Assembly (NCBI GenBank): GCA_030041985.1
Contig: JASIAM010000335.1
Span: forward strand, 1-43,583
DNA length: 43,583 nt
Direction of reading: 5' to 3'
Origin: Bryobacteraceae bacterium
Lineage (GTDB): Bacteria > Acidobacteriota > Terriglobia > Bryobacterales > Bryobacteraceae
This document shows positions 6,216 through 32,855 of the stretch, piece after piece. Made by a program: the position numbers and the translations under genes. Position 1 is the stretch's first letter; the number at the start of each line of letters is the position of its first letter. The notes beneath the pieces are model-generated. The model saw only the letters and a program-made list of their open reading frames with translations. It was not told the origin of the DNA and did not search any database.

Positions 6216-8624
6216 GTGAATACGAGGCGTCTCGGAAGCGGTTTCTTTTCAGGTTCTGTCGTTCTCGCGTCGGTCGCGCTTGTCTCCGGCCAATCTCCCC
6301 AAACAGCGCCATCCTCGGATATGGCCACCCAGCGTGCGCTCCTCGACAAGTACTGCGTGGTTTGCCACAACACCAAGTTGAAGACGGCCAACCTGGAGCT
6401 CGACAAACTTGACCTCGCGCACCTCAGCGAGCATGCGGAAGTTGCCGAGAAGGTCGTCCGCAAACTGCGCGCCGGCATGATGCCCCCGGCCGGTATGCCG
6501 CGGCCGGACCGCGCCAAAGTGGATGGATTAATCACCTGGATGGAAAAGGAAATCGATCGCAACGCGGTCACCTATCTCCCCCCGCCCGGCATTCACCGCC
6601 TCAACCGGACCGAATACACCAACGCTATTCGTGATGTATTGGCGCTCCAGGTCGATGCCACGAAATTCCTTCCCGCCGACGATTCCACTCACGGCTTCGA
6701 TAACATCGCCGGGGCGCTTACCCTCTCGCCCGCTTTGATGGAAGCGTATCTGTCTGCCGCCGGAAAAATCAGCCGCCTCGCGTTGGGCGATGCGTCGTCG
6801 CCCTCCCAGGCCGTCTTTGAAGTCCCCGCCGACACCGCGCAGAATTACCACATTGCGGGCCTGCCCTTCGGAACCCGCGGTGGCATCCTCATCAAGTATC
6901 AATTTCCTGTCGATGGCGAATACTCCTTCAAAGTCAAGGGAGTCACGGGTTATTTTCAGGCCGTCTTAGGCGGAGTCAAAGGCGAGCATCTGGAGGTCAC
7001 AGTCGATGGCGAACTGGTAAAGTTGTTCGACTGGGATAAGGAAATCGCCAACACCACAGGCAATGGCCGCTCCACGCCACGTATCCCCGTCAAGGCTGGC
7101 CTGCACACCATCGGCGTGACGTTCCTCGCCACCAACGACATCCCCGGCAGTGAATTGAACCGGCCGTTTGAGCGCACTATGAACACGCCGGGATCGATAC
7201 CGGGCTTTTTGTTCTATCCGCACGTCGGCCAGGTCTGGATCGAAGGACCTTACAATTCCGCCGATGTCAGCGAAACCGCCAGCCGCAAGAAGATTTTCGT
7301 TTGCCACCCGGCTACGGCGCGCGAAGAAACACCCTGCGCCCGCACCATCATTTCTACTCTCGTCAAGCACGCCTTCCGCCGGCCCGCCACGCCCGCGGAC
7401 GTCGAGGCGTTCCTGGCGTTTTACCAGGCAGGCCGCAGCGACAATGGCACTTTCGATGATGGCATCGAAGCGGTAGTGCAACGTGTGCTCGCCGATCCGG
7501 AATTCGTCTATCGTCTGGAGCCGGAGCCTGCCAGCCTCGCCCCCGGCAAGACGTATCACATCAGCGATCTCGCGCTGGCTTCGCGCCTCTCCTTCTTTCT
7601 TTGGAGCAGCGTTCCCGATGACCAGTTGCTCGATCTCGCTGCTCAAGGCAAGCTCAAAAATCCGGCTGTACTCGAACAGCAGGTCCGCCGCATGCTGGCC
7701 GACCCGAAGGCCGAAGCCATGGTCGACAACTTCACCGGCCAGTGGCTGAGCGTCCGCTCCCTGAAAACCAGCGAGCCGGTGGTGGAACTCTTCCCCGATT
7801 TCGATGACAACCTGCGCGCCGCCTTCCAGCGCGAGATGCAACTGTTCTTCGGTAGCATCGTCCATGAGGATCGCAGCGTGCTCGATCTGCTCGATGCCGA
7901 TTACACCTTCGTCAACGAGCGCCTCGCCAAACATTACGGAATCCCCGAGATTTATGGCGAGCAGTTCCGCCGGGTAACCCTCCCTGCGGACCTCGATATG
8001 CGCCGCGGCCTGCTGGGCAAGGGCGCCCTCATGACGCTGACTTCGGCCGCCGCCCGCACCTCGCCTGTCACCCGGGGCAAGTGGTTCCTGCAGACGTTTA
8101 TGGGAGTCAGCCCGCCCGATCCCCCGCCCAACGTCCCCAAACCCAAAGAACCTCCGGTGGATCCGACCGGCAATACCAAGGTCCCCACCATGCGCGAAAC
8201 CCTGGCGTTGCACCACACCAACCCCACGTGCGCATCCTGCCACGCCCTCTTCGAGCCGATGGGACTGGCGCTCGAAAACTTCGATGCGGTCGGAACCTGG
8301 CGCACCCGCGACGGGGATAGTCCGATCGATGCCAGCGGCGTCCTGGTGGATGGAACCAAAGTGGATGGCGTCGCGAGCCTGCGCGGCTGGGTGATCAGCC
8401 GCTCCGATCAATTCGTCCGGGTAGTGACCGAGAGGCTGATGACATACGCCTTAGGCCGTGGAGTGGAATATCAGGACATGCCGGAAGTGCGGGCCATTGT
8501 ACACGATGCGGCTCCCGGCCGGTATAAGTTTACCTCCCTCGTGATGGGCATCGTGAATAGCCCCGCATTCCAAATGAACATGAAGATAGACGACAGCAAT
8601 CAGCAACTGGCGGCGGCACGATGA
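6216..8624 (+). CDS. DUF1587/DUF1592/DUF1588/DUF1585-type exported cytochrome-like protein
   Basis: This 802-aa protein starts at GTG 6216, with CCGGAGG 5 nt upstream. A signal peptide (SGSVVLASVALVSGQ) precedes a c-type haem motif CVVCH (residues 47-51), so it should be exported. The following regions match the DUF1587 block (IHRLNRTEYTNAIRDVLAL), the DUF1592 block (ASRLSFFLWSSVPDDQLLDL), the DUF1588 block (RRGLLGKGALMTLTSAAART) and a DUF1585 tail (RVVTERLMTYALGRGVEYQD). A second CxxCH (CASCH, residues 672-676) lies in the C-terminal part. This architecture is common in Planctomycetes and Acidobacteria next to a DUF1552 protein, as here. Its biochemical role is unknown. Complex carbohydrate use has been suggested for such proteins, but nothing in this sequence proves it. 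Confidence 0.92.
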   Translation: MNTRRLGSGFFSGSVVLASVALVSGQSPQTAPSSDMATQRALLDKYCVVCHNTKLKTANLELDKLDLAHLSEHAEVAEKVVRKLRAGMMPPAGMPRPDRAKVDGLITWMEKEIDRNAVTYLPPPGIHRLNRTEYTNAIRDVLALQVDATKFLPADDSTHGFDNIAGALTLSPALMEAYLSAAGKISRLALGDASSPSQAVFEVPADTAQNYHIAGLPFGTRGGILIKYQFPVDGEYSFKVKGVTGYFQAVLGGVKGEHLEVTVDGELVKLFDWDKEIANTTGNGRSTPRIPVKAGLHTIGVTFLATNDIPGSELNRPFERTMNTPGSIPGFLFYPHVGQVWIEGPYNSADVSETASRKKIFVCHPATAREETPCARTIISTLVKHAFRRPATPADVEAFLAFYQAGRSDNGTFDDGIEAVVQRVLADPEFVYRLEPEPASLAPGKTYHISDLALASRLSFFLWSSVPDDQLLDLAAQGKLKNPAVLEQQVRRMLADPKAEAMVDNFTGQWLSVRSLKTSEPVVELFPDFDDNLRAAFQREMQLFFGSIVHEDRSVLDLLDADYTFVNERLAKHYGIPEIYGEQFRRVTLPADLDMRRGLLGKGALMTLTSAAARTSPVTRGKWFLQTFMGVSPPDPPPNVPKPKEPPVDPTGNTKVPTMRETLALHHTNPTCASCHALFEPMGLALENFDAVGTWRTRDGDSPIDASGVLVDGTKVDGVASLRGWVISRSDQFVRVVTERLMTYALGRGVEYQDMPEVRAIVHDAAPGRYKFTSLVMGIVNSPAFQMNMKIDDSNQQLAAAR

Positions 8625-8633
8625 AAACACATG

Positions 8634-8695
8634 TGGGGTCGGGGTTTCTGCCCCGCCGCCGGGTTTCTGCCCGGCGCATCTATGTACTGACCCCA
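8634..8695. repeat. Compound palindromic element after the DUF1592 gene
   Basis: Two tandem hairpins, GGGG-TTTCTG-CCCC (8641-8654) and GCCGGG-TTTCTG-CCCGGC (8658-8675), are enclosed by a 7-bp outer stem: TGGGGTC at 8634 pairs with GACCCCA at 8689. The layout resembles a REP-type intergenic palindrome and could protect or end the upstream mRNA. A related element lies at 12029-12077. No gene is supported in the rest of the 8625-8886 gap. Confidence 0.6.
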
Positions 8696-8886
8696 AGCTT
8701 TCGGGTACGGAGACGGACCCTCTCCCGAAAATGCGTCTCCAAGCGTCGCAATCCATACAAATCAGGCAGCTTACAAAAGAGTGCGTGTCTCTTCCCTCGC
8801 TCCGCCTCCATCCCCTGTGAGCCGGCCTTTAGTTTCAACAACGCAGTTGCAGTAGGAAAGCGGTAATAGAAGAAAGGAAAGGAATT

Positions 8887-10251
8887 ATGTTCATCACCAA
8901 AAAGCATATGTCCCGCCGGACGCTGCTGCGTGGCGCCGGCACCGCCTTAGCCCTCCCCCTGCTGGATGCCATGGTGCCCGCAGCTTCGGCGCAGGCGCAG
9001 ACCGCCGCTAGTCCCAAGCCGCGATTCGTAGGTTGTTTTGTGCCCCATGGTATGGCCCCCGGGGCCTATTGGGTCCCTGCCAAAGAAGGTGCTTTGGATC
9101 CGGTTTTTCCTTTCAACTGGAAGCCGCTAGAACCATTCCGCAATTCCACCCTCATCATGAGCGGCCTGCATTCCCGCTCCTCCGAGCCGCCTCCCGGAGC
9201 AACGGGGGCCGACCACTGGGTTGCTGCGGCGTTCCTCTGCGCCAACAAGCCCAAGAAGACCGCTGGCGCGGACGTGTATGCGGGCACCACCATCGATCAG
9301 ATCATCGCCCAAAAGATCGGCCGCGAAAATCTGATGCCCTCCATGCAGCTCGCTGTCGAAGATCCCGGCGCCAATTCCAGCAACTGCGGTGAAGGCTACA
9401 GTTGCGCCTACACCAACACCATCTCCTGGGCCACCCCGACCGACCCGCTGCCTATGGAGTTGAATCCGCAGGTCGTGTTCGAGCGCATGTTCGGAGACGG
9501 CAGCACGGCCGAATTGCGCGCCAAGCGCAGAAAGCGCGATGGCAGCATTCTCGATTCGCTCGGTGGCACCCTCTCCCGCCTGCGTAATGAATCGAGCCCC
9601 GCCGATCGCATGCGCATCGATAACTATACGGATAACGTTCGCGAGATTGAGCGCCGCTTGCAGATTGCCATGAAGGCTTCCGCCGTTGCGCCGCCCGAGA
9701 TGGAGGTGCCGGTCGGCGTGCCGCAAACCTTCGACGAGCACATCAAGCTGCAGTTCGACCTGTTGGCGCTCGCATTCCAGGCCGACATCACCCGCGTCGG
9801 CACGCTGTTGTTTGCCCGCGATCTTACCGGCCGGACTTACCCCGAAAGCGAAGCCCCCACCGCCGGTTTCCACGGAGCCTCGCATCACGGCGAAGATCCC
9901 AAGCGCATCGCCGAACTTTCCAAAATCAACCAATATCACGTAAAGATGCTGGCCCACCTCATCGATCGCTTGTCGAAAACCCCCGATGGCGATGGGACTC
10001 TGCTCGATCACTCCCTCGTCCTGTACGGTTCCAACATGGGCAACTCTAATCAGCACGTTCACTACGATGTGCCCCATGTGCTCGTGGGCGGACTCAATGG
10101 GAAGCTCAAAGGCGGCCGCCACATCGCTTTCCCCACTAGAACTATACCGACCGGCAACCTGCTGCTTACCTTGCTGGATATGTATGGCATCCATCAGGAC
10201 AGCATTGGCGATAGCACCGGCGAGATCTCAAATATCCCAAATCTAGGGTGA
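8887..10251 (+). CDS. DUF1552 family protein, Tat-exported
   Basis: This 454-aa protein has AGAAAGGAAAGGA upstream of its ATG. The N-terminus carries a twin-arginine signal (SRRTLLRGAGTALALPLLDA, cleavage likely after ASA), so it should be exported folded. DUF1552 features include PRFVGCFVPHGMAPGAYW, ADHWVAAAFL, and a C-terminal half with HGASHHGEDPKRIAEL and DHSLVLYGSNMGNSNQHVHY. The His-rich stretches and the resemblance to the DUF1501/sulfatase-like fold suggest metal binding, but no reaction is established for the family. It follows the DUF1592 gene and precedes the ankyrin gene by 4 bp, the usual DUF1592-DUF1552 pairing with an extra partner. Confidence 0.92.
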   Translation: MFITKKHMSRRTLLRGAGTALALPLLDAMVPAASAQAQTAASPKPRFVGCFVPHGMAPGAYWVPAKEGALDPVFPFNWKPLEPFRNSTLIMSGLHSRSSEPPPGATGADHWVAAAFLCANKPKKTAGADVYAGTTIDQIIAQKIGRENLMPSMQLAVEDPGANSSNCGEGYSCAYTNTISWATPTDPLPMELNPQVVFERMFGDGSTAELRAKRRKRDGSILDSLGGTLSRLRNESSPADRMRIDNYTDNVREIERRLQIAMKASAVAPPEMEVPVGVPQTFDEHIKLQFDLLALAFQADITRVGTLLFARDLTGRTYPESEAPTAGFHGASHHGEDPKRIAELSKINQYHVKMLAHLIDRLSKTPDGDGTLLDHSLVLYGSNMGNSNQHVHYDVPHVLVGGLNGKLKGGRHIAFPTRTIPTGNLLLTLLDMYGIHQDSIGDSTGEISNIPNLG

Positions 10252-10255
10252 ATCT

Positions 10256-12028
10256 ATGAAGCGCATTGCCGGAATTAGTGCCCTGTCTCTTCTGCTGCCG
10301 CTTGCCGGCTTCTGCGCCGGATCTCCCGAAGTTGCCGATGCGATGATGCGCGGCGATATCGCCGCTGTCCACCAACTCATCGATCAGCATGCCGATGTCA
10401 ATATCGCCCAGGATGATGGCGCAACCGCCGTGCACTGGGCGGTCTATCGATCCGATAAGCAAACACTGGATTTGCTGCTGCACGCCGGCGCGAATCCCAA
10501 AGCCGCCAACCGCGAGGGTTCCACGCCCTTGTGGCTGGCGAGCATCAATGGAGATGCCGGCATTATCGAATCGCTTCTCAATGCCGGCGCCGATCCCAAC
10601 GAAAAACTTCCCTTGGGAAGGACCCCGCTTATGGCCGCGGCGCGCACGGGCAATCCGGATGCGATCAAGGTGCTGCTCGATCATGGCGCGCAAGTGAACG
10701 TCAAGGAAACCCTGCGCGGCACTACACCGCTAATGTGGGCGGCCGATGAAGGCCATGCCGCTGCCATCAAGCTACTGGTAGAGCATGGCGCTGACATCAC
10801 GGCTCGCTCCGATCCCGCCGAACGCGGTAGAGGGCCGGCGCTCGGCAAGTCAGGCGACCCGAGAAAGCAAGTAGCAGCCTTGGCCGCTCGCCAGGCTGCC
10901 GGTCAGGATTCACCGGATCTCAGCCAACTCCGTACCTTCGCCGACACGCCCGCACAGCCTGCGGCGCAAGGGCGCGGTGGCCGCGCACGTGCGGCAAATA
11001 ATGAAGGCAACGATTCGGGCGTCGATCAAAACGATGATGCCGCCGTCGCCGCTTTAGGCTTTCGCAACCGTCCCGCCCCCAAAGATGGCGGTGGTCTCAC
11101 AGCGTTAGTCTACGCCGCTCGCGCCAATGACATCGATTCCGTCAAGGCGCTACTGGAAGCCGGTGCGGACATCAACCAGACCACCTTATACGGCTGGAGT
11201 CCTCTGCTGGTCGCTACGCAAAATCGGTTTTACAAGCTCGGAGAGTATCTAATCGCGCATGGCGCCAATGTCAACCTCGCCAATAAAGGCGGGTGGACGC
11301 CGCTCTATCTTGCCACTGACAACCGCAATATCGAATCCGGTGATTATCCCGTTCGCAAGCCCGACATGGATCATCTGGATTTCATCAAGCTCCTCCTCGA
11401 TAAAGGCGCTGATGTGAATGCCCGCATGAAGGACAGCACGGAAACCCGCACGGTTTTCACCAATCAGTGGTTGGATGAGAACGGTGCTACCGCTTTTCTG
11501 CGCGCCTCCCAGTCCGGCGACCTCGTCCTCATGAAACTTCTGCTGGCCCACGGCGCTGATCCGAAAATCCCAACGGTATTAGGCGTCACCGCGCTGCAGG
11601 TAGCCGCGGGTATCGGTTGGGTGGAAGGCATCACTTATGAGTGGTCTCCCGAATCCACGCTCGAAGCCGTGAAGATGTTAATCGATCTCGGCCTCGACGT
11701 GAATGCGCAAGCCGATACCGGCCGCACCGCCATGCACGGCGCGGCGCACAAGGGTCGAACCGACGTCATCCAGGTGCTCTACGATCACGGCGCCAGGCTC
11801 GACGTGCGCGATTACGGTAACACCGATAACCGCGGCGGCAAACTCGCCATTCACACTTGGCTACCCGTCGATTATGCCGATGGATTGGTTCGCGTAGGCG
11901 TCCAATCAGCCATCGCGCATCCCGAAGCCGGCCTCCTCTTACGGAAACTGATGACCCAATCCGGCCTCGAGGCTCCGCCCGTGGGACGCACTCTAGAATC
12001 GATTTGCATCACGGACGCCTGCGAATAG
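10256..12028 (+). CDS. Exported ankyrin-repeat protein
   Basis: The protein is 590 aa and starts 4 bp after the DUF1552 stop, with AGGGTG as a ribosome-binding site; the pair is clearly co-transcribed. A Sec signal peptide is visible (ISALSLLLPLAGFCAG). At least nine ankyrin-like repeats follow, recognisable by units such as GATAVHWAVYRSDKQTLDLL, GSTPLWLASINGDAGIIESL and GRTPLMAAARTGNPDAIKVL. Residues about 180-265 are a low-complexity linker between two repeat blocks. There is no catalytic domain, so it probably acts as a periplasmic binding scaffold. Its place in the DUF1592-DUF1552 operon suggests that it binds or organises those proteins. That link is inference. Confidence 0.9.
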   Translation: MKRIAGISALSLLLPLAGFCAGSPEVADAMMRGDIAAVHQLIDQHADVNIAQDDGATAVHWAVYRSDKQTLDLLLHAGANPKAANREGSTPLWLASINGDAGIIESLLNAGADPNEKLPLGRTPLMAAARTGNPDAIKVLLDHGAQVNVKETLRGTTPLMWAADEGHAAAIKLLVEHGADITARSDPAERGRGPALGKSGDPRKQVAALAARQAAGQDSPDLSQLRTFADTPAQPAAQGRGGRARAANNEGNDSGVDQNDDAAVAALGFRNRPAPKDGGGLTALVYAARANDIDSVKALLEAGADINQTTLYGWSPLLVATQNRFYKLGEYLIAHGANVNLANKGGWTPLYLATDNRNIESGDYPVRKPDMDHLDFIKLLLDKGADVNARMKDSTETRTVFTNQWLDENGATAFLRASQSGDLVLMKLLLAHGADPKIPTVLGVTALQVAAGIGWVEGITYEWSPESTLEAVKMLIDLGLDVNAQADTGRTAMHGAAHKGRTDVIQVLYDHGARLDVRDYGNTDNRGGKLAIHTWLPVDYADGLVRVGVQSAIAHPEAGLLLRKLMTQSGLEAPPVGRTLESICITDACE

Positions 12029-14329: not shown

Positions 14330-15760
14330 CTACGAGCAGCGCAGCAGAGCCTTGAAGCCGAAGTCCATGTGCTGCTGGATGTGGCAGTGGAACAGGGTTA
14401 ACCCCGGCTGGTCGGCGGTAAAGTCGACGGTGGCACGTCCGTAAGTGGGCACCACCACAGTGTCCTTGATGACGCCCGATGTGGCTTTGCCATAAATCTC
14501 GGCGATTTCCAGATTGTGGCGATGCAGATGCAGCGGATGCGAGTCGTCAGTCCGGTTGTGAAAGGTCAGCCGGTACCGCGTGCCTTGCTTCAGCACGAAT
14601 TCCTGGTCGTGCGGGTAGGTCTTGCCGTTCACGGTGAAAGTGTTAAATTTACCTGCTCCGCGCGGCACCTTTTCAAAGATCATGTCCAGTTTCTCGGTGG
14701 GCGCGGGTTGCGAGGGGGGCTTGCCAAACACCGTATAGTCCCAGTTGAATTTGGGCGGGGCGGTCCATTGCGGCGTGCGGCGCTGATTGGCGTATTCGAT
14801 GACAATGCCCAGACCCCCATCGCGCACCATGTCCTCCGGCCCGCCCATGATCCAAACGCCGGGCTGGTTCATCTGCACCCACGCATCGACGCGCTCGCCT
14901 GGCCCGATCAGCAACACATCAACGGCCGCGGGGGTGGGTACGGGATTGCCATCCAGCGCGATGACATTAAACTTGTGGCCGGGGAGCGCCAGGTGACGGA
15001 TCTCGATGGCGCTGGCGTTCAGAAAGTGAAACAGGACGCGGTCACCCGGTTTCACGCGAATGGGATCGCCAGCGCCGAGCGCTTTGTCGTTGATCGAGAA
15101 AATATCCGCTTGGACTTCGATGCCCACGGGCCGAGTATCGAGCACGGCGGGCTTTTCCGGTTGCGGGCCGGTAGCATCGAGATCGTCATTATCCATCGAT
15201 TGACTGGTGAAATAAGGCTCCCAATCGCGTAATGCCAGGTAGTGCTCTTGATCGTAGTTGCCGGGATTATTCGCTCCTTCGATGACCAGGAAACCAAACA
15301 TGCCGGTGTAACTGCCGCGGTGCAGGTCGTCCATAGCCATGGTGTGGGTGTGATACCAGCGCGTTCCGGCAGGCGTGGGGGTGAACTTATAGCTGCGGCT
15401 GCCGTGGGGAGGCACTGCGGGCGTGCCTTCTTCTTCCGAGCCATCCACCTCGGCGGGGATGAACAAACCGTGGAAATGGACGAACTCCGGCACGTCGGTT
15501 TTATTGACGACATTCACGGTGACCGGCACGCCTTCCTTCATCCGCAGCAGCGGGCCCGGCGCAATGCCGTTGTATCCGATGGTGCTCAGGATGCGGTTGG
15601 GCGCCAGTTCCACCGTAATGGGCGCGATTTCGAGCGAGAAATCGGTTCGGGCCACATCCTGCGGGCCGGTGGGCGCGAGAAACGATTGCGGTTGCTGGCC
15701 CGCGAGCCGGCCGCCGGCTGCCGACAGTCCGGCAAGTTTGAGAAATTCACGTCTTTGCAT
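14330..15760 (-). CDS. Tat-exported multicopper oxidase (laccase-like)
   Basis: The 476-aa protein begins MQRREFLKLAGLSAAGG, a twin-arginine signal, so the folded copper enzyme is exported. Four copper-binding histidine motifs are visible in order: HFHG (about residue 95), WYHTHT (about 137), HPLHLH (about 415) and HCHIQQHMDFG near the C-terminus. These build the type 1 site and the trinuclear cluster of a three-domain laccase-like enzyme that oxidises a substrate and reduces O2 to water. The Met after the last motif fits an axial type 1 ligand. The substrate cannot be read from sequence; phenols, metal ions or a reduced cytochrome are possible. It is transcribed divergently from the TonB-dependent receptor at 16030. 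The 269-bp gap should hold promoters for both, though no clear box was found. Confidence 0.93.
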   Translation of the reverse strand: MQRREFLKLAGLSAAGGRLAGQQPQSFLAPTGPQDVARTDFSLEIAPITVELAPNRILSTIGYNGIAPGPLLRMKEGVPVTVNVVNKTDVPEFVHFHGLFIPAEVDGSEEEGTPAVPPHGSRSYKFTPTPAGTRWYHTHTMAMDDLHRGSYTGMFGFLVIEGANNPGNYDQEHYLALRDWEPYFTSQSMDNDDLDATGPQPEKPAVLDTRPVGIEVQADIFSINDKALGAGDPIRVKPGDRVLFHFLNASAIEIRHLALPGHKFNVIALDGNPVPTPAAVDVLLIGPGERVDAWVQMNQPGVWIMGGPEDMVRDGGLGIVIEYANQRRTPQWTAPPKFNWDYTVFGKPPSQPAPTEKLDMIFEKVPRGAGKFNTFTVNGKTYPHDQEFVLKQGTRYRLTFHNRTDDSHPLHLHRHNLEIAEIYGKATSGVIKDTVVVPTYGRATVDFTADQPGLTLFHCHIQQHMDFGFKALLRCS

Positions 15761-16029
15761 GAAAATGCCGCATGAAAAAACTGGAAATCCGATCTTCGAT
15801 CATCGTATCGCATCATTCCGCGGGCCGTCCGGCTTCTGTGCCGAGAGTGGCGCCCGGATCGCCAACGCGACCTGCCGGCGCTGTAGTTATCTTTGTACAT
15901 GCGCTGTTCCGATCGCGAGGTCCTGCGGCGCCGTCCGCTCACCGTCAAAAGCAGTTCACTTATGGTTCGCGTGAGTCCGGCGGTGGCTTTGTGCTTCGGG
16001 CTTGCGGGTTTGTGGCTGAGAATTTAGAA

Positions 16030-18807
16030 ATGAGTCAGCGGTCTACCGTTCTCTCACTACTTTTCTCGCTATGCTGCGTCTCAAGTGTTATTTACGCCCA
16101 AGCCGGCGCCGGCAATGCCGGCACCGTACGGGGATCTGTACTGGATCCCTCGGGAGCGGCCATCGCCGGGGCGGCCGTCGAGATCCAAAACCCCGTTTCT
16201 CATTTCACGGCAACCACCAAAACGGATAGTCAGGGCCGGTTCGAACTTCTCAATGTCCAATATAACAACTACCATTTGACGGCCACCGCGCCGGGCTTCC
16301 AGTCCGGTGTAGCGGACATTGATGTGCGTTCGCCTTTACCGGTGGTGGCGAATCTGACATTGAAACTCGGCGCTGCCACCGAGAGCGTCAACGTAACAGC
16401 CGAGGCCGGCGATCTGGTCGAAACTACTCCGGTGACTCACACCGATATCGATCGGGAGTTATTTAGTAAACTGCCGCTCGAAAGTCAGTCCTCCGAGCTT
16501 AGTTCGCTGGTGACTTTGGCATCCCCGGGAGTCGCGGCCGATTCCAACGGCCTGTTCCACGGCCTCGGGGATCATGCCTCGAACTCGTTTTCACTCGATG
16601 GCCAGCCAATTACGGATCAACAGAGTAAAGTATTCTCCAACCAGATTCCCGAGGAGGCCGTGCAATCGATGGAAGTAATCGAAGGCGCACCTCCGGCCGA
16701 ATATGGCGACAAAACCAGCCTCATTATCGATGTCACTACCCGATCCGGCCTGGGAGTCAGCACGCCCCACGGGGATCTCTCGACTTCCTACGGAACCTTC
16801 GGCACCACCACGGGCGCGGCGGATTTCTCTTATGGCGGACCCAGGTGGGGCAACTTTATCGACATCAACGGAATGAACACGGGCCGATTTCTCGATGGCC
16901 CGGAATTCCAGGTGTATCATGACCACGGCAACCAGGAGAACATTTTCGATCACGTAGACTACAAGCCCAGCGTGCCGGATTCCCTGTCCACTAATCTCCA
17001 ATTCACCCGCTCCTGGTTCCAAACTCCCAATTCCTTTGACGCACAGACTGGCGATGCCTGGACAGGACTAGTGGTGAACAACGGTGGCCTGGGTCCCAAC
17101 GGCTTGCCGATCGGCCCCACCGACCAGCGCTCCCAAATCAGGACCTTTGATATCTCGCCTACCTGGTCGCGCCTCATCAACCAGAGCACCGTATTCACTT
17201 TGGGAGCATGGACGCGGCGCGACGAATACAACTACTATCCGAGCGACAATCCTTTCTCCGATCTCCAACCGGATCTGCAACTCCAGACCATTGGGCAGTA
17301 TCGCACGCTGACTAATGTGGGAGCGCGCACCTCCGTGTCCTATGTCAAGGGGATCCACAATATCAAAGCAGGGGTGAGCTATGAGGACACCATCCTTCAG
17401 GAAAACGACAGTTTCGGTATCGTCGATCCAACGGCTAACGCCGTCTGCCTGAATCCGGATGGATCACCGGACACCAACCCGCTCATCACCGACCCCGCAC
17501 AATGCGGCACGCTGCAAGCGAATCCCAATTTCAATCCTTTGCTCGGCTGTTATGACTTAACCCGAACAGCGCCGCTGCCCCCGTCTGACGGCTGCCCCAC
17601 TTCGACTAGCGGACTCTATACCTTCCGCGGCCACGCCGGTATTCGCGAAGTGGCGGCGTATATTCAAGACGCCATCACCGTGAAAAATTGGACCTTCAAT
17701 CTGGGGGTTCGATTCGATTACTACGATGGCATCACCAACGCCAAGCAAGGGGAACCCCGTATCGGCATCGCCTACAAAGTGAAGCCCTCGAACACGATTT
17801 TGCGGATTTCCTACGCGCGCACGCTAGAGACGCCGTTTAATGAGAACCTGGTCCTGGCGAGCCTCGGATGCTCGAACCCGGTAGTGAACGCAATTATGTC
17901 CAGCACGGTCAGTCCATGCGTTACCAACGCCCCGCTCGTCTCCGGTTACCGCAACGAATTCCACGCCGGCCTGGAACAGGCGTTCGGGAAATATTTTGTG
18001 TTGGATGGCGAGTATATCTGGAAATACACGCATAACGCATACGACTTTAGCGTGCTGGGCGATTCACCGATCACCTTTCCCATCGAGTGGGCTCGGTCCA
18101 ATATCCCTGGATTCGCGGTACGTGGCAGCATGCCGAACTTTCATGGATTGTCAGCGTATATCGTTATGTCTCACGTGGCGGCGCGCTTCTTCGAGCCGCA
18201 AGTCAGTGGCATCGGCGCAACGCCATGCTCGGCAGGCGGATGTCAGGTGTTCCGCATCGATCATGACGAAGTTTTCAATCAGACCACTCACCTCCAATAC
18301 CAGCCTTTCAAGCGGGGACCATGGCTCGCCTTCAATTGGCGCTACGACAGCGGACTGGTCGCCGGACCCGTGCCGTGCGCCGGCGGGCAAGATTGCGCCA
18401 ATGGCCCGAATGGAACCGATTCGATTGTGGACGTGTCCGGCCTGACGCCCGACCAGCAGTTTCAGGCCGGCCTGTATTGCGGCTCCGTACACGCGACGCC
18501 CACTACTCCGATCAGTCCCAATGATCTCTGCCCCGCGTCCGAATACGGATCGAACCTGGTGAAAATTCCGGCCGCCGGCACTGAGAACGACGATCACAAT
18601 CCGCCGCGCATCCAGCCGCGCAATCTCTTCGATATCGCGCTTGGCCACGACAACATATTCAACGGAGATAAATACAAGTGGAGCGCGAGAATTCAAGTAG
18701 TGAACCTGGCCAATGAATACGCGCTTTATAACTTCCTCTCTACGTTCAGCGGAACGCACTACGTGAGTCCCCGGACAGTAAGCGGCTCGATCGGATTCCA
18801 CTTCTGA
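16030..18807 (+). CDS. TonB-dependent receptor with N-terminal carboxypeptidase-regulatory domain (Oar-like)
   Basis: I start at ATG 16030 (MSQRSTVLSLLFSLC) because a signal peptide follows directly and ends at YAQ. The same frame is open 86 codons further upstream, but that part has no signal-like N-terminus. The mature protein opens with a carboxypeptidase-regulatory-like domain (GTVRGSVLDPSGAAIAGAAV, then GRFELLNVQYNNYHLTA). A plug region with SMEVIEGAPPAEYGD comes next, then a long beta-barrel to a C-terminal Phe (TVSGSIGFHF), the usual outer-membrane insertion signal. Length is 925 aa. Such receptors are abundant in Acidobacteria and import large or scarce ligands using TonB energy. The ligand is unknown. 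The gene directly precedes the exported TPP enzyme and cytochrome c, so its substrate may feed them. Confidence 0.92.
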   Translation: MSQRSTVLSLLFSLCCVSSVIYAQAGAGNAGTVRGSVLDPSGAAIAGAAVEIQNPVSHFTATTKTDSQGRFELLNVQYNNYHLTATAPGFQSGVADIDVRSPLPVVANLTLKLGAATESVNVTAEAGDLVETTPVTHTDIDRELFSKLPLESQSSELSSLVTLASPGVAADSNGLFHGLGDHASNSFSLDGQPITDQQSKVFSNQIPEEAVQSMEVIEGAPPAEYGDKTSLIIDVTTRSGLGVSTPHGDLSTSYGTFGTTTGAADFSYGGPRWGNFIDINGMNTGRFLDGPEFQVYHDHGNQENIFDHVDYKPSVPDSLSTNLQFTRSWFQTPNSFDAQTGDAWTGLVVNNGGLGPNGLPIGPTDQRSQIRTFDISPTWSRLINQSTVFTLGAWTRRDEYNYYPSDNPFSDLQPDLQLQTIGQYRTLTNVGARTSVSYVKGIHNIKAGVSYEDTILQENDSFGIVDPTANAVCLNPDGSPDTNPLITDPAQCGTLQANPNFNPLLGCYDLTRTAPLPPSDGCPTSTSGLYTFRGHAGIREVAAYIQDAITVKNWTFNLGVRFDYYDGITNAKQGEPRIGIAYKVKPSNTILRISYARTLETPFNENLVLASLGCSNPVVNAIMSSTVSPCVTNAPLVSGYRNEFHAGLEQAFGKYFVLDGEYIWKYTHNAYDFSVLGDSPITFPIEWARSNIPGFAVRGSMPNFHGLSAYIVMSHVAARFFEPQVSGIGATPCSAGGCQVFRIDHDEVFNQTTHLQYQPFKRGPWLAFNWRYDSGLVAGPVPCAGGQDCANGPNGTDSIVDVSGLTPDQQFQAGLYCGSVHATPTTPISPNDLCPASEYGSNLVKIPAAGTENDDHNPPRIQPRNLFDIALGHDNIFNGDKYKWSARIQVVNLANEYALYNFLSTFSGTHYVSPRTVSGSIGFHF

Positions 18808-18929
18808 GGGTGACCCGTCCGGATTTTCTATCTCGCTTGACACTGCAACTTCCGCTTCACTAAGATGGTGGCCGCAGCCGGCGGAGTTGCATGGTATTGG
18901 TGTATCCGCCGGGCAGGAGGATCACAACC

Positions 18930-20882
18930 ATGGCGAAATCGAAAAATGGCCCGGTTTCGGGTCACGGACGGCGGGGATTTCTCAAAGGTGTGGCTGCTGG
19001 CGCAGCAGCGCTGGTAGCGAAGCCTCCCGCGGCACAAGCGCAGCAGGCCGCGCCGCAGCGTCCCGCAGCGCCTCTGCCTTCCGCCACCCAAGTCGCGTTT
19101 GAAACCGGAACGCCGCCACCGCGCGCCGATGTGTACAGCACCGACCGGCCCGGCGCCGATTTCATGGTAGACGTCCTGAAATCGCTGAACTTCGATTACA
19201 TCTTCGCCAACCCGGGATCCAGCTTCCGCGGCTTGCAGGAGTCGTTCATTAATTACGGCGGCAATAAAGCTCCCGAATGGATCACCTGCTGCCATGAAGA
19301 GTCCTCCATCGCGATGGCGCACGGCTACTTCAAGATCGAAGGCAAACCGATCCTCTGCATGGCTCACGGCACCGTGGGGCTGCAACATGCTTCCATGGCC
19401 ATTTACAACGCCTACGCGGATCGCGTTCCGGTGTATCTGGTTTTGGGCAACGAGCAGGATATTGCCTTCCGCCGCAGCGATGTGGAATGGGCGCACAGTG
19501 TGCAGGACGCCGCTTCCATGGTGCGCGATTACACCAAGTGGGATGATACGCCGGTTACCTTGCGCCACTTCGCGGAATCGGCTGTGCGGGCATATAAGAT
19601 TGCGATGACGCCGCCCATGGAGCCGGTGGTGATTGTCGCGGGAGGGGCGCTGCAGGAAGAACCGATGCCGGAGGAAGACCGCAAGGCGCTGCGCGTTCCG
19701 AAACTGGCGATGACTACACCTCCCGCCGGCGATCCCAACGCTGTGGCCGAATTGGCGAAGATGCTGGTGAATGCGGAAAACCCGGTGATCATCGCGGGCC
19801 GGGTGGCGCGCACGCCGGATGGCATCAACTCGCTGGTGGAACTGGCCGAACTGCTGCAGGCCCCCGTGCAGGACCGCCGTTTCCGCATGAATTTCCCGAC
19901 TAAGAATCCCCTTTACAACAGCGGCGATGTGCCGAACGCGGATGTGATTCTCGGCCTCGAAGTGCCTGATTTCTGGTATGTCACCCACGCCCAGACGCCG
20001 ATTAACCGCATGGGCATGGAGTCGCGGTCCACCGTAAAACCGGGCACGAAACTGGTGACCATCACCGCCAGTGACCTGTTCAGCCGCAGCAACTATCAGG
20101 ATTTCGGCCGCTACGCGGAAGTGGACCTGGCCATCGCCGCCGATGCCGAAGCCACTCTGCCGCCGCTGATTGAGGCCTGCAAAAAGCTGCTCACTGCCGA
20201 CCGCAAACAGGCCATCGAACAGCGTGGGAAGCGCCTCGCCGACCGGCACAAGCAGACTCGGGACCGCGACTTCGATGCGGCCGCATATGGCTTCGACGCG
20301 AGCCCGGTGAGCACCGCCCGCATGTCCGCCGAGTTGTGGAACCAGATCCGGCACGAAGACTGGTCGCTGGTTTCCGACCTGACCTTTGTGAGCTGGTGGC
20401 CCTTGCGCCTCTGGGAATTCGACAAGCATTACCAGTACATCGGCGGGCATGGCGGTTACGGTATCGGGTATGGCGCGCCGGCCGCGGTAGGAGCGGCGCT
20501 GGCCAACAAAAAGCACGGGCGCGTGACCATCAACATTCAATGCGATGGCGATTTGAACTACGCTCCCGGCGTGCTCTGGACGGCCGCGCATCACAACATC
20601 CCGCTGCTGAGCGTGATGCACAATAACCGCGGCTATCATCAGGAACGCATGTTCCTCGAAGACATGGCTTGCCGTGCCAATCGCGATGTGTCAAAAACCC
20701 ATATCGGCGTGGCGCTCGACACTCCCAATATCAACTACGCCACGATGGCGAAAGCCTACGGAATGTATAGCGCGGGGCCGATCGACAATCCCAACGATCT
20801 GGGTCCGGCCATCAAGGCCGCTCTCGAAGTGGTCAAGAAGGGTGAGCCGGCCCTGATCGATGTGGTTACGCAGCCCCGTTAG
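18930..20882 (+). CDS. Tat-exported thiamine diphosphate enzyme (acetolactate synthase-like)
   Basis: Start ATG 18930 has GGAGGA 7 nt upstream, giving 650 aa. The N-terminus is a twin-arginine signal (GRRGFLKGVAAGAAALVA), unusual for this enzyme family, which is normally cytoplasmic. Three domains follow as in acetolactate synthase or benzoylformate decarboxylase. The N-terminal pyrimidine-binding domain includes FANPGSSFRGLQE and CCHEESSIAMAHGY (the Glu near residue 123 activates TPP). The central domain includes NPVIIAGRVARTPDGI. The C-terminal diphosphate-binding domain has the motif CDGDLNYAPG, D539 to N565-N566. The first Gly of the usual GDG is Cys. It probably cleaves or oxidises a 2-oxo acid-like substrate in the periplasm. 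The neighbouring cytochrome c suggests an oxidative reaction, which is inference. Confidence 0.85.
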   Translation: MAKSKNGPVSGHGRRGFLKGVAAGAAALVAKPPAAQAQQAAPQRPAAPLPSATQVAFETGTPPPRADVYSTDRPGADFMVDVLKSLNFDYIFANPGSSFRGLQESFINYGGNKAPEWITCCHEESSIAMAHGYFKIEGKPILCMAHGTVGLQHASMAIYNAYADRVPVYLVLGNEQDIAFRRSDVEWAHSVQDAASMVRDYTKWDDTPVTLRHFAESAVRAYKIAMTPPMEPVVIVAGGALQEEPMPEEDRKALRVPKLAMTTPPAGDPNAVAELAKMLVNAENPVIIAGRVARTPDGINSLVELAELLQAPVQDRRFRMNFPTKNPLYNSGDVPNADVILGLEVPDFWYVTHAQTPINRMGMESRSTVKPGTKLVTITASDLFSRSNYQDFGRYAEVDLAIAADAEATLPPLIEACKKLLTADRKQAIEQRGKRLADRHKQTRDRDFDAAAYGFDASPVSTARMSAELWNQIRHEDWSLVSDLTFVSWWPLRLWEFDKHYQYIGGHGGYGIGYGAPAAVGAALANKKHGRVTINIQCDGDLNYAPGVLWTAAHHNIPLLSVMHNNRGYHQERMFLEDMACRANRDVSKTHIGVALDTPNINYATMAKAYGMYSAGPIDNPNDLGPAIKAALEVVKKGEPALIDVVTQPR

Positions 20883-20894
20883 AGGTTTTTCACG

Positions 20895-21248
20895 ATGAAA
20901 TACGCTGGTTTGTTTTTCGTCCTCTTGCTGCCAGTAGCAGCCTCCGCGCAATCGGCGGCAACGGGCAACGTGGATAACGGCAAGAAACTGTTTCTGCGGG
21001 AGGGCTGCTGGGAGTGCCACGGCTACGCCGGACAGGGCGGCAGGGATGGCGCTCGCATCGGCGCGACGAGCTTGACTCTGCAGGGCGTGATCCGTTATGT
21101 ACGCAAGCCTGCCGGCGCCATGCCCGCTTTTTCGGAGAAGAACCTTTCGGACGCAGACTTGACGGATATCTACGCATACCTGAAGTCATTGCCTCCCGTA
21201 AAGACAGCTAAAGATGTTCCGCTGCTGAACCAGTTCAAGAACGAATAG
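20895..21248 (+). CDS. Small exported cytochrome c
   Basis: This 117-aa protein has a clear Sec signal (MKYAGLFFVLLLPVAASAQ). A single c-type haem motif CWECH lies at residues 38-42, and M76 (GAMPAFSEKN) is the likely axial ligand. The fold matches a class I monohaem cytochrome (KKLFLREGCWECHGY near the start and LTDIYAYLKSLPP near the end). It begins 12 bp after the exported TPP enzyme, with AGAGG upstream, so the two are almost certainly co-transcribed. It is therefore a candidate electron acceptor for that enzyme. A four-base gap separates its stop from the broken mutM. Confidence 0.92.
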   Translation: MKYAGLFFVLLLPVAASAQSAATGNVDNGKKLFLREGCWECHGYAGQGGRDGARIGATSLTLQGVIRYVRKPAGAMPAFSEKNLSDADLTDIYAYLKSLPPVKTAKDVPLLNQFKNE

Positions 21249-21251
21249 CGG

Positions 21252-22140
21252 ATGCCGGAACTTCCGGACGTAACGGTGTACGGGGAAGCGCTGTGTCCGC
21301 GGGTGGGGGGGCGCCGGTTGGAGAATGTCCGCATTCGCGGGCCGTTTCTGCTGCGCAGCACGAACCCTCCGCTCGAAGCGGTGTTTGGCAAGACTGTGGA
21401 AGAGGTGCGCCGCCTCGGCAAGCGCATTCTCTTGGGTTTCGAGGGTGGCCTTTGGCTGGCACTGCATCTGATGATCGCGGGCCGGCTGCACTGGCGGGAA
21501 CGAAGCCCGAGCGTTGGTTCGAAAAATTTCCTGGCGACCTTCGAGTTTGATTCCGGCTGGCTGCTGCTGACGGAAGCCGGCACACAACATCGCACGTCGT
21601 AGCAGGAGAGGAAGGGCTGCGCTCGCTCGACGCGGGCGGAATCGAAGTGCTCGATTCGGACGTGGTTGCTTTCGCCGCGGTGTTACGTCCGCCAATCACA
21701 CGCTCAAGCGCGCGCTTACGGACCCGCGCCTGTTCAGCGGCATTGGCAATGCCTATTCGGATGAGATTCTGCACCGCGCGCAACTTTCGCCCGTCGCGAT
21801 GACGCAGCGGCTCGATGAAACGGCCCTGGCGCGGCTGCATCGCGCGACCATCGACGTGCTGCAGGAATGGGTTGTCCGGCTGCGGGAACAGGCCGGCGGG
21901 AAATTCCCGGAGAAGGTCACGGCGTTTCGTCCGGAAATGGCGGTGCACGGCCGTTACGGCCAGCCGTGCCCGCGCTGCTGCGCCAAGATTCAGCGCATCC
22001 GCTACGCTGCCAACGAAACCAACTACTGCCCGGTTTGTCAGACCGGCGGACGGCTGCTGGCCGACCGCGCACTCTCCCGCCTGTTGCGCGAGGACTGGCC
22101 GCGGACGCTGGAGGAACTCGAAGCGCTCAAGCAGCGGTAG
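21252..22140 (+). pseudogene. mutM: Formamidopyrimidine-DNA glycosylase gene with two frameshifts
   Basis: The enzyme removes oxidised purines from DNA. The N-terminal frame starts MPELPDVTVYGEAL, with the catalytic Pro2 and Glu3, and stops at a TAG at 21600. A second frame (about 21596-21690) continues the protein with [21 protein letters not shown] third frame (from about 21691) gives [20 protein letters not shown] and runs to 22140, including a C-terminal zinc finger with two CxxC pairs. So one full-length gene is split by two shifts, one near 21577-21598 (several residues seem to be missing there) and one near 21680-21693. All conserved segments survive, so this is either a recent pseudogene or locally poor sequence. 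No intact copy is in the window. Confidence 0.85.
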
Positions 22141-30854: not shown

Positions 30855-32855
30855 ATGAGTTATCGAATTCTGGCGGCAGCCGCCGCTGGTTGCTTCCTTA
30901 GCCTGTGCGTAGGGCAAGCGCAGGAGGGCACGCCGGCCACGGGCGAGTGGCGCGTGAACGGCGGAGATACGGGCAGCACGCGGTATTCGCCGCTCGATCA
31001 GATTAATGCAGGAAACGTGCAGAACCTGCAAGTGGTCTGGCGCTGGAAGGCGCAAAATATGGGGCCAAAGCCCCAGGCGGCGTGGGAAGTGACTCCGCTG
31101 ATGGTGGACGGCAAACTATATTTCACAGCGGGGACGGGGCGGACGGTAGTGGCCGCGGATGCCGCTACCGGTGAGACGCTCTGGCTCTACCGTGGCGACG
31201 ATACTGCGGAGCGCGGCGCAGTGCGCGCTAACAATCGCGGCCTGGCGTATTGGACTGATGGCCGGGGAGATGAGAGGCTTCTGTTTGTAACGCCGGGTTA
31301 CCAGCTTGTGGCGCTGAATGCCAAAACAGGATTGCCTATTCCTGGTTTTGGTGTGGATAGCCACGTGGACCTGTGGCAGGGCCTGGACCGTCCGGTGGTG
31401 CAGAAGGGCACGATCGGCGCGACTTCGCCGCCCATCGTGATTCGTGATGTGGTCGTGGTCGGTGCGGCATTGCGCGTAGGCGTGGCGCTACCCACCAAAG
31501 AGAACGTGCCGGGCTATATTCGCGGTTACGATGTCCACACCGGCAAACTCCTGTGGACCTTCCACACCGTGCCGCAGGCCGGCGAACAGGGCACAGAGAC
31601 GTGGGGCAAGGACCCGCAAACCGGGATCGACTCCTGGAAATTCACGGGCAATACGGGCGCCTGGGGGCCGCTGACCGCGGATAACGAACTGGGCTACGTA
31701 TATATTCCCGTCGAAGCGCCGAGCGGAGACACGTATGGCGGACAACGTCCCGGCGCCAACCTGTTCTCCGACACCATCGTGTGTCTGGACGCCAAGACGG
31801 GAAAGCGCGTCTGGCACTACCAGCTCATCCACCACGAAATGTGGGATTACGATATTCCGGCCGCGCCGGTGCTGGTGGACCTGACCGTCAACGGGAAGAA
31901 GATCAAGGCGCTGGCGCAGGTAAATAAATCGGCGTTCACCTTTGTGTTCGACCGGACCAACGGGCAGCCGGTATTTCCGATCGTAGAGCGTCCCGCGCCG
32001 AAGGGCAATACGCCGGGTGAGTGGTATTCGCCCACCCAGCCCTATCCCACCAAACCGCCGGCATTCGACCGCCAGGGGGTCACGGATGCAGACTTGGCCG
32101 ACTACACACCCGAAATCAAGGCGGCGGCTTTGAAGCTGGCCTCGCAGTATGTGACGGGGCCGATTTATACGCCGCCGATCGTAAAAGATGCGGGCGGTAA
32201 GCTGGGAACCATTCAACTGCCGGGTGCGGGCGGCGGCGCCAACTGGATGGGTGCTTCGGTCGATCCGGAGACGGGCATCCTGTACGTGCCCTCAGTAACC
32301 TCGCCGTACATTTCCGCGCTGCAACCGGGGGGCACACGCTCGGAGATGCCGTATATCGCTGCGGGCGGCCTCGGCGGACCTACGGTAATGGGTCTGCCGC
32401 TGATCAAAGAACCATACGGGCGCATTACGGCCATCAACCTCAACACGGGCGAGGACGTGTGGATGACGCCGAACGGGAAGACTCCCGACAGCGTGGTCAA
32501 CAATCCGGCGCTGAAGGCTGCGAATATCGACGCCAGCAATTGGGGCGGCTCGCAGCGTTCGCCCATCCTGGTGACCAAAACGTTACTGCTGGAGGGGAGC
32601 AACGCTCTTCGCGTGCTCGATAAGAAAACCGGCCAGCAGGTCCACGAGTTTGACTTAGGCTCGAACCTCACGGGCGGCACGATGACGTACCTGGTGAATG
32701 GGCGCCAGTTCATCGTTGCCGTGGTCAGCGGAAAGATGGGCGAAGGAGCGGAGCTGGTTGCGCTGGCGTTACCGGAGCCGGGCGCAGCAGGCCGCGGGGG
32801 CCGCGGCGGGCGTGGTGGCCGTGGAGGCCGCGGCGGTGAGGCCGATCCGAACTGA
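30855..32855 (+). CDS. PQQ-type quinoprotein dehydrogenase, exported
   Basis: The 666-aa protein starts at ATG 30855, with GAGGAG 6 nt upstream, and has a signal peptide ending CVGQAQ. It is built as an eight-bladed propeller of the quinoprotein type. Signature stretches include GGDTGSTRYSPLDQINAGNV, the repeated LDAKTGKRVW and LNAKTG blade motifs, and HHEMWDYDIPAAPVLVDL. The family oxidises alcohols or sugars (glucose/ethanol dehydrogenase-like) and passes electrons to quinone or cytochrome c in the periplasm. A run of RGG units (about 32788-32838) forms a Gly-Arg-rich tail unlike the usual family end. PQQ synthesis genes are not in the window. The exact substrate is unknown. It converges on the NHL-propeller gene. 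Confidence 0.9.
   Translation: MSYRILAAAAAGCFLSLCVGQAQEGTPATGEWRVNGGDTGSTRYSPLDQINAGNVQNLQVVWRWKAQNMGPKPQAAWEVTPLMVDGKLYFTAGTGRTVVAADAATGETLWLYRGDDTAERGAVRANNRGLAYWTDGRGDERLLFVTPGYQLVALNAKTGLPIPGFGVDSHVDLWQGLDRPVVQKGTIGATSPPIVIRDVVVVGAALRVGVALPTKENVPGYIRGYDVHTGKLLWTFHTVPQAGEQGTETWGKDPQTGIDSWKFTGNTGAWGPLTADNELGYVYIPVEAPSGDTYGGQRPGANLFSDTIVCLDAKTGKRVWHYQLIHHEMWDYDIPAAPVLVDLTVNGKKIKALAQVNKSAFTFVFDRTNGQPVFPIVERPAPKGNTPGEWYSPTQPYPTKPPAFDRQGVTDADLADYTPEIKAAALKLASQYVTGPIYTPPIVKDAGGKLGTIQLPGAGGGANWMGASVDPETGILYVPSVTSPYISALQPGGTRSEMPYIAAGGLGGPTVMGLPLIKEPYGRITAINLNTGEDVWMTPNGKTPDSVVNNPALKAANIDASNWGGSQRSPILVTKTLLLEGSNALRVLDKKTGQQVHEFDLGSNLTGGTMTYLVNGRQFIVAVVSGKMGEGAELVALALPEPGAAGRGGRGGRGGRGGRGGEADPN

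Follow-up and report, generated by a model that had tools for sequence, protein, structure and literature searches.

The window (the whole 43,583-nt stretch of DNA analysed here) is contig C325 of a host genome of 6.0 Mb in 355 contigs that is 98% complete. An ORF map of the window gave the following four genes, whose strands and spacings match those of the first-pass annotation, and one leader:

14330-15760, minus strand: three-domain multicopper oxidase with a Tat-type leader, divergent (Pfam Cu-oxidase, Cu-oxidase_2 and Cu-oxidase_3)
16030-18807 (likely), plus strand: TonB-receptor-like outer-membrane protein (Pfam CarboxypepD_reg and a weak Plug match, 8e-6)
18930-20882 (likely), plus strand: thiamine pyrophosphate (ThDP) enzyme with a Tat leader and a benzoylformate-decarboxylase-like fold (Pfam TPP_enzyme_N, TPP_enzyme_M and TPP_enzyme_C)
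18930-19040, plus strand: Tat leader of the ThDP enzyme, RRGFLKG plus a hydrophobic stretch (RR at 18969-18974)
20895-21248, plus strand: small exported mono-haem class I c-type cytochrome (CWECH at 21006-21020, distal Met76)

The receptor ORF is open from position 15772, and the ATG at 16030 is its likely start; given this start, the 269-nt gap reported between the divergent oxidase and receptor genes is correct. The ThDP enzyme ORF extends from 18891 to 20882, and because an AGGAGG at 18915 precedes an ATG at 18930, we take the latter as the likely start. The cytochrome begins 12 nt past the stop codon of the ThDP enzyme, again as annotated. The N-terminus of the multicopper oxidase reads MQRREFLKLAG. 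This oxidase stayed below the CopA and CueO cut-offs (TIGR01480, 164.3 bits vs. 478.95; PRK10965, 98.4 bits vs. 525), and the host genome (G000) has further copper oxidases elsewhere.

The leader of the ThDP enzyme has the sequence MAKSKNGPVSGHGRRGFLKGVAAGAAALVA. Motif inspection showed a Tat-type GRRGFLKG (S/T-R-R-x-F-L-K type) ahead of a hydrophobic stretch, in agreement with the twin-arginine signal first proposed for this protein. The RR and F of the leader were invariant in the 18 clade members compared, and the RR motif was found in 77 of the best 80 of at least 556 relatives. Two of the three RR-negative loci are cut at the 5' end; the third is L080, although the near-identical L074 has RR. 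TatC and cytochrome c assembly genes are present in the host genome. Tat transports folded proteins, and by its leader the ThDP enzyme looks built for export from the cytoplasm. The description of such a leader on a ThDP enzyme as rare was too strong, as RR was also present in 15 of 18 distant Acidobacteriota homologues (25-28% identity). Among these distant enzymes (L017-L034), a CxxCH frame lay downstream only in L030 (L018 was not evaluable). RR leaders in distant ThDP enzymes lacking the cytochrome indicate that export alone does not call for a cytochrome.

Pfam identified three TPP domains in the ThDP enzyme. The top NCBIfam match, PRK08327/NF006203 ('thiamine pyrophosphate-requiring protein', a name that gives no reaction), scored 251.8 bits across residues 85-661 against a cut-off of 456, and no curated cut-off was reached in any of the 25 best NCBIfam models listed. 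An AlphaFold model built from 64 sequences (pLDDT 85.6) was closest to benzoylformate decarboxylase (BFD) of P. putida (1bfd/1mcz; Z 37.0, rmsd 2.5-2.7, 504 residues aligned, 25% identity, residues 86-663). The ThDP-dependent synthase 8x3x came next (Z 35.5), and then benzaldehyde lyase, 2-hydroxyacyl-CoA lyase and acetohydroxyacid synthase (about Z 34). On the fold ranking and the alignments, the original label 'acetolactate synthase-like' is better read as 'benzoylformate-decarboxylase-like'. The acetolactate synthase large subunit has the same three TPP domains, but this identity was rejected on the TIGR00118 score (106.5 bits vs. a cut-off of 538) and on its fold rank below BFD. Pyruvate oxidase (PoxB) was rejected as the identity at 76.5 bits vs. 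a cut-off of 792 (PRK09124). From its nearest folds, the enzyme is probably without flavin.

Besides the fold, the alignments equate BFD Ser26, the ThDP-activating Glu47 and His70 with S110, E136 and H159 of the window enzyme; roles of Glu47 and His70 in BFD are given in an earlier study (PMC6028569). The ThDP-site residues E136, H159, D552, G553 and N578 were found in 97/97 clade members and N579 in 96/97, which preserves the catalytic Glu and the GDG...NN metal/ThDP motif; the S110 position was Ser in 88/97. The window enzyme differs from BFD in its Tat leader and paired cytochrome, and it scored 160.6 bits against the NCBIfam BFD cut-off of 493 (PRK07092). BFD positions 459-461 align with H583-Q584-E585, so that Glu585 stands in place of BFD Leu461; positions 460-461 belong to the substrate pocket of BFD. 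The BFD His281 region aligns poorly with the window enzyme, and the sole position tabulated there (369) is variable. Sixteen positions at least 95% conserved in the clade were common to at most one of eight relatives without RR, among them H583, E585, M587 and Q165 (each 97/97). These clade-specific positions, taken with H583-Q584-E585, suggest that the clade has its own active site, with a pocket that seems more polar than that of BFD.

We examined the conservation of the enzyme and cytochrome genes in three sets of loci. Searching 297 Acidobacteriota genomes, we found a CxxCH frame just downstream of the enzyme in 15 of 18 evaluable members (window included). Scanned against the genomes of 84,980 species, the ThDP protein returned at least 556 relatives, and in the best 80 of these a CxxCH frame was present within 700 nt downstream at 68 of 79 evaluable loci. 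A set of 97 loci omitted L035, L044, L045 and L046 (same contigs as L101, L107, L084 and L099), L043 (same place as L078, with a matching cytochrome) and L039 (cut at a contig end); it reduced to 95 distinct loci at 95% identity and, L094 not being evaluable, to n = 94. At 82 of these 94 loci a CxxCH frame followed the enzyme in the same orientation within 900 nt, vs. 20 of 368 control genes (other genes of at least 300 aa in the same neighbourhoods). The count is not circular because the ThDP protein was the only criterion by which loci were selected. In 61 of 78 cases, the first Met in the cytochrome frame lay between -4 and +30 nt from the enzyme gene. A2 and A3 drew on 53 loci out of L054-L133 (n = 80) and on 4 distant homologues out of 18. 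On this sequence evidence, the enzyme-cytochrome part of the neighbourhood is conserved, and the Tat-leader ThDP enzyme with its small c-type cytochrome is a genuine conserved two-gene module.

No downstream cytochrome was found at the remaining 12 of the 94 loci, which include L038, one of the host's own copies. At L124 the cytochrome is convergent, and at L115 another CxxCH protein lies upstream. Of five enzyme copies in the host, three (on C325, C148 and C265) are followed by the cytochrome and one (on C267) is not, and the copy on C51 is truncated by the end of its contig. Tandem ThDP genes with a common cytochrome were also observed, in the orders ThDP-cytochrome-ThDP and ThDP-ThDP-cytochrome (L159/L060 and L056); their products could possibly form hetero-oligomers.

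The window cytochrome has one CWECH, and its distal Met was invariant in 82 relatives, as expected of a class I c-type cytochrome (CxxCH plus distal Met). Class I cytochromes mature in the periplasm. Mono-haem proteins made up 76 of the 82 partner cytochromes and di-haem proteins the other 6. Across the 82 sequences (median identity 43%), the C, C and H of the motif, one Arg and the distal Met were 100% conserved, and a G-Q-G region was conserved in 80-90%. The distance matrices of enzyme and cytochrome were correlated (Mantel r 0.65; no permutation among 2000 reached this value). Partners that are inherited together should give such a correlation, which could arise from co-inheritance alone and is no proof of contact. 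Fusion of the two genes was considered and rejected, as none of the enzymes at the 95 distinct loci contains a CxxCH.

The ThDP enzyme was placed in a tree of 116 rows obtained by a quick search, in which 11 of the 18 distant homologues were included and the proteobacterial rows form long branches. In this phylogenetic placement, as suggested in the first-pass annotation, the 97 rows of the same type as the window enzyme form one side of a branch with an SH-aLRT of 94. The cytochrome states of 21 added rows were entered from separate locus examinations and not computed with the tree. Eight relatives without RR (31-39% identity) are the next group. No CxxCH frame was seen downstream of these eight, L147 among them, with 663 nt visible for two of them. 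Two of the eight have annotated neighbours: one enzyme lies between aldehyde dehydrogenases and beside an alpha-hydroxy-acid oxidase, and the other precedes an NAD(P)-dependent oxidoreductase. Such dehydrogenase and oxidoreductase neighbours, with no cytochrome, suggest that the electron partner may change with the compartment. The outer group (n = 11) had an RR leader in 8 of 11 and a CxxCH frame near 1 of 11 (L018 is without downstream sequence to judge). As read from the tree, cytochrome pairing began at the base of the clade and was later lost in scattered lines. RR leaders are also found outside the clade, and their presence in 8 of 11 outer-group members indicates repeated gain or loss of the leader. 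In one cytochrome-less subclade (L095, L096 and L104), an Abhydrolase_10 gene occupies the place of the cytochrome, and the oxidase-assembly genes CtaA, SCO1 and DUF420 lie nearby upstream, with a UbiA-type (CtaB-like) gene in L095; the Pfam assignments cover the L096 genes and the UbiA gene of L095 only.

Relatives scoring 470 bits or more (44-69% identity) were found in 12 of 297 Acidobacteriota genomes (the host is one of the 12), and several of these genomes have multiple copies; up to four candidates were scored per genome, and one host copy was missed. The clade is patchy, occurring in 3 of 61 genomes of the host's family. The pair is also carried by two proteobacterial plasmids, and both of these enzymes have RR leaders. 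In Caballeronia zhejiangensis p3, 8 nt separate a 'thiamine pyrophosphate-binding protein' from a 'c-type cytochrome'; Novosphingobium sp. KACC 22771 has the enzyme, two cytochrome ORFs and then a TonB-receptor-like ORF (by eye). Among 398 genomes of the phylum of seed G297 (titled Gammaproteobacteria), matches at E 1e-60 or better came from 4 genomes, with up to three candidates scored per genome, and none besides the seed had an RR-type member. Three metagenome-assembled records that are proteobacterial by title (L069, L120 and L127) may be misbinned.

We propose that the module is a periplasmic 2-oxo-acid-cleaving ThDP enzyme that passes electrons directly to its partner cytochrome c, a reading to which we would give about an even chance. 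The gene pair points to a route, so far undescribed, by which organic acids could be oxidised outside the cytoplasm. The ThDP enzyme would fold and bind ThDP and Mg2+ in the cytoplasm and would then be exported in folded form by Tat. In the periplasm it would attack the carbonyl of a 2-oxo acid (or an acyloin) and split the C-C bond, usually freeing CO2. As the periplasm has no NAD+ or CoA, the resulting carbanion/enamine would be oxidised via the partner cytochrome c: it would lose two single electrons, stepwise, to the haem protein, and hydrolysis would then yield the carboxylic acid. The electrons would move onward from cytochrome c to a terminal oxidase. The presence of several paralogues in one genome suggests several substrates.

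PoxB (EC 1.2.5.1) is a flavoenzyme on the cytosolic face of the membrane that reduces quinone and carries out oxidative decarboxylation without CoA. The window enzyme would be its periplasmic, cytochrome-c-linked counterpart, sharing the proposed oxidative decarboxylation of a 2-oxo acid that feeds the respiratory chain without CoA, but with a haem protein as the proposed carrier. In periplasmic PQQ alcohol dehydrogenases, the redox cofactor is PQQ and the gene lies beside that of a class I cytochrome; the window pair resembles these in that the gene of an exported oxidoreductase adjoins that of a class I cytochrome, and differs in its cofactor, ThDP. We suggest more tentatively, as something that may well not hold, that the pair represents a new electron-transfer class, in which an extracytoplasmic ThDP carbanion/enamine is oxidised directly by haem c, without flavin, an iron-sulfur cluster, lipoamide or NAD+. 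A precedent for the chemistry, with a one-electron iron complex as the acceptor, is the reduction of ferricyanide by the ThDP alpha-carbanion, the basis of a published transketolase assay (PMC3352088).

A serious if somewhat doubtful alternative is a non-oxidative periplasmic 2-oxo-acid decarboxylase or acyloin lyase, with the aldehyde product oxidised by another periplasmic dehydrogenase that the cytochrome serves. The closest fold, BFD, is itself non-oxidative, which counts against the oxidative reading, and the replacement of BFD Leu461 by Glu585 and the relative without RR that lies between aldehyde dehydrogenases also fit the alternative. Against it, the cytochrome is the one regular neighbour, and every dehydrogenase family seen stayed at or below 9 of the 98 loci. 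PQQ dehydrogenases do lie near 9 of 98 loci (L074 and L080 being near-identical), in 1.23 Mb scanned, and we rejected them as regular partners. The host is rich in PQQ genes: its 6.0 Mb gave 92 PF01011 matches, many of them fragments of one gene and counted differently from the 9/98, and the frequency near the enzyme copies was not shown to exceed chance. One such gene, a PQQ dehydrogenase at 30855-32855 of the window (PF01011, 575.6 bits), is one among many in the host genome.

The neighbours of the enzyme copies have no common theme, and we rejected gene context as a guide to the substrate. L044 lies beside TctA/TctB, CoxM/CoxG and amidohydrolase genes, L134 beside aromatic-ring dioxygenase genes, and other copies beside tannase, esterase and MFS genes. 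Tannase/feruloyl esterase genes were found near 6 loci, really 5 (L060 and L159 are one place), with about 1.6 expected from the 8 such genes of the host; this was set aside as a weak lead only.

It is unlikely that the pairing reflects shared export or regulation only, with the cytochrome acting as a general periplasmic electron carrier and not as a partner dedicated to the enzyme. Small class I cytochromes are generic, and the partner is missing at 12 of 94 loci, as might be expected of such a carrier. The pairing is nevertheless far more frequent than in control genes (82/94 vs. 20/368), it occurs both in Acidobacteriota and on two proteobacterial plasmids, and an Arg and a Met are kept in all 82 cytochromes at a median identity of 43%; these observations argue against a merely general carrier.

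The first-pass annotation had offered, as one reading of the four genes, a pathway of TonB import, ThDP enzyme, cytochrome c, and perhaps copper oxidase with O2, and had allowed that the cluster would be coincidental if relatives lacked Tat signals and never lay beside a cytochrome or the receptor. Tat leaders and cytochromes are present in the relatives and support the two-gene core; the receptor is not kept, and the four-part system is left unsupported. A receptor similar to that of the window was found within 7.5 kb at 5 of 98 loci, any TonB-type receptor by a looser profile at 16 of 98, and a copper oxidase near the enzyme at 2 of 98 (window included), all lower bounds since many flanks are short. 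A receptor directly upstream and co-oriented was found in the window only (1 of 98). The relative L055 (83% identical) has the ThDP enzyme, cytochrome and formamidopyrimidine-DNA glycosylase in the same order as the window (the glycosylase by its opening sequence), and no receptor was found upstream of its enzyme within the available 1.8 kb. We rejected the receptor and the copper oxidase as parts of the system on these counts. The four-part pathway, favoured by the gene order in the window alone and by the TonB-receptor-like ORF downstream of the Novosphingobium pair, is highly improbable given the 1/98 and 2/98 counts; a terminator-like and a promoter-like site also fall between the receptor and enzyme genes, yet such sites are no commoner than in shuffles. 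A real two-gene module sits inside a partly coincidental cluster.

To our knowledge, the oxidative ThDP enzymes described so far have flavin, an iron-sulfur cluster, lipoamide or an artificial dye as electron acceptor and are sited in the cytoplasm or in organelles. No description of an exported ThDP enzyme paired with a cytochrome was found in the titles and abstract openings among the literature matches listed. In a Candidatus Solibacter paper, a paralogue group, possibly of this family, appears under the label 'acetolactate synthase, large subunit' (PMC3174227). The module combines known kinds of component (a ThDP enzyme; an exported oxidoreductase with a cytochrome), and there is a realistic chance that its electron-transfer chemistry is new. 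If the proposal is correct, an exported ThDP enzyme that has its own cytochrome would bring thiamine chemistry a new acceptor, and ThDP would join the cofactors carried across the membrane by Tat. Electrons from organic acids would join the respiratory chain at cytochrome c, a new entry point, and Acidobacteriota, which are hard to culture, could respire organic acids without taking them up into the cytoplasm. With two genes, the module is easy to test.

Other features of the window were also recorded. A formamidopyrimidine-DNA glycosylase gene at 21252-22140 appears split between different frames (N-terminal domain 21252-21602, zinc finger 21799-22140), through either an assembly error or a pseudogene; L055 has a single longer ORF with a similar start. 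A PSCyt/PSD-domain cytochrome protein, an HXXSHH (DUF1552) protein with a Tat-type leader and an ankyrin protein lie in a row at 6216-12028. HXXSHH and PSCyt proteins were also seen near the ThDP copies L038, L108 and L113 (HXXSHH also near L131), and ankyrin proteins near L038, L108, L113, L131 and L048.
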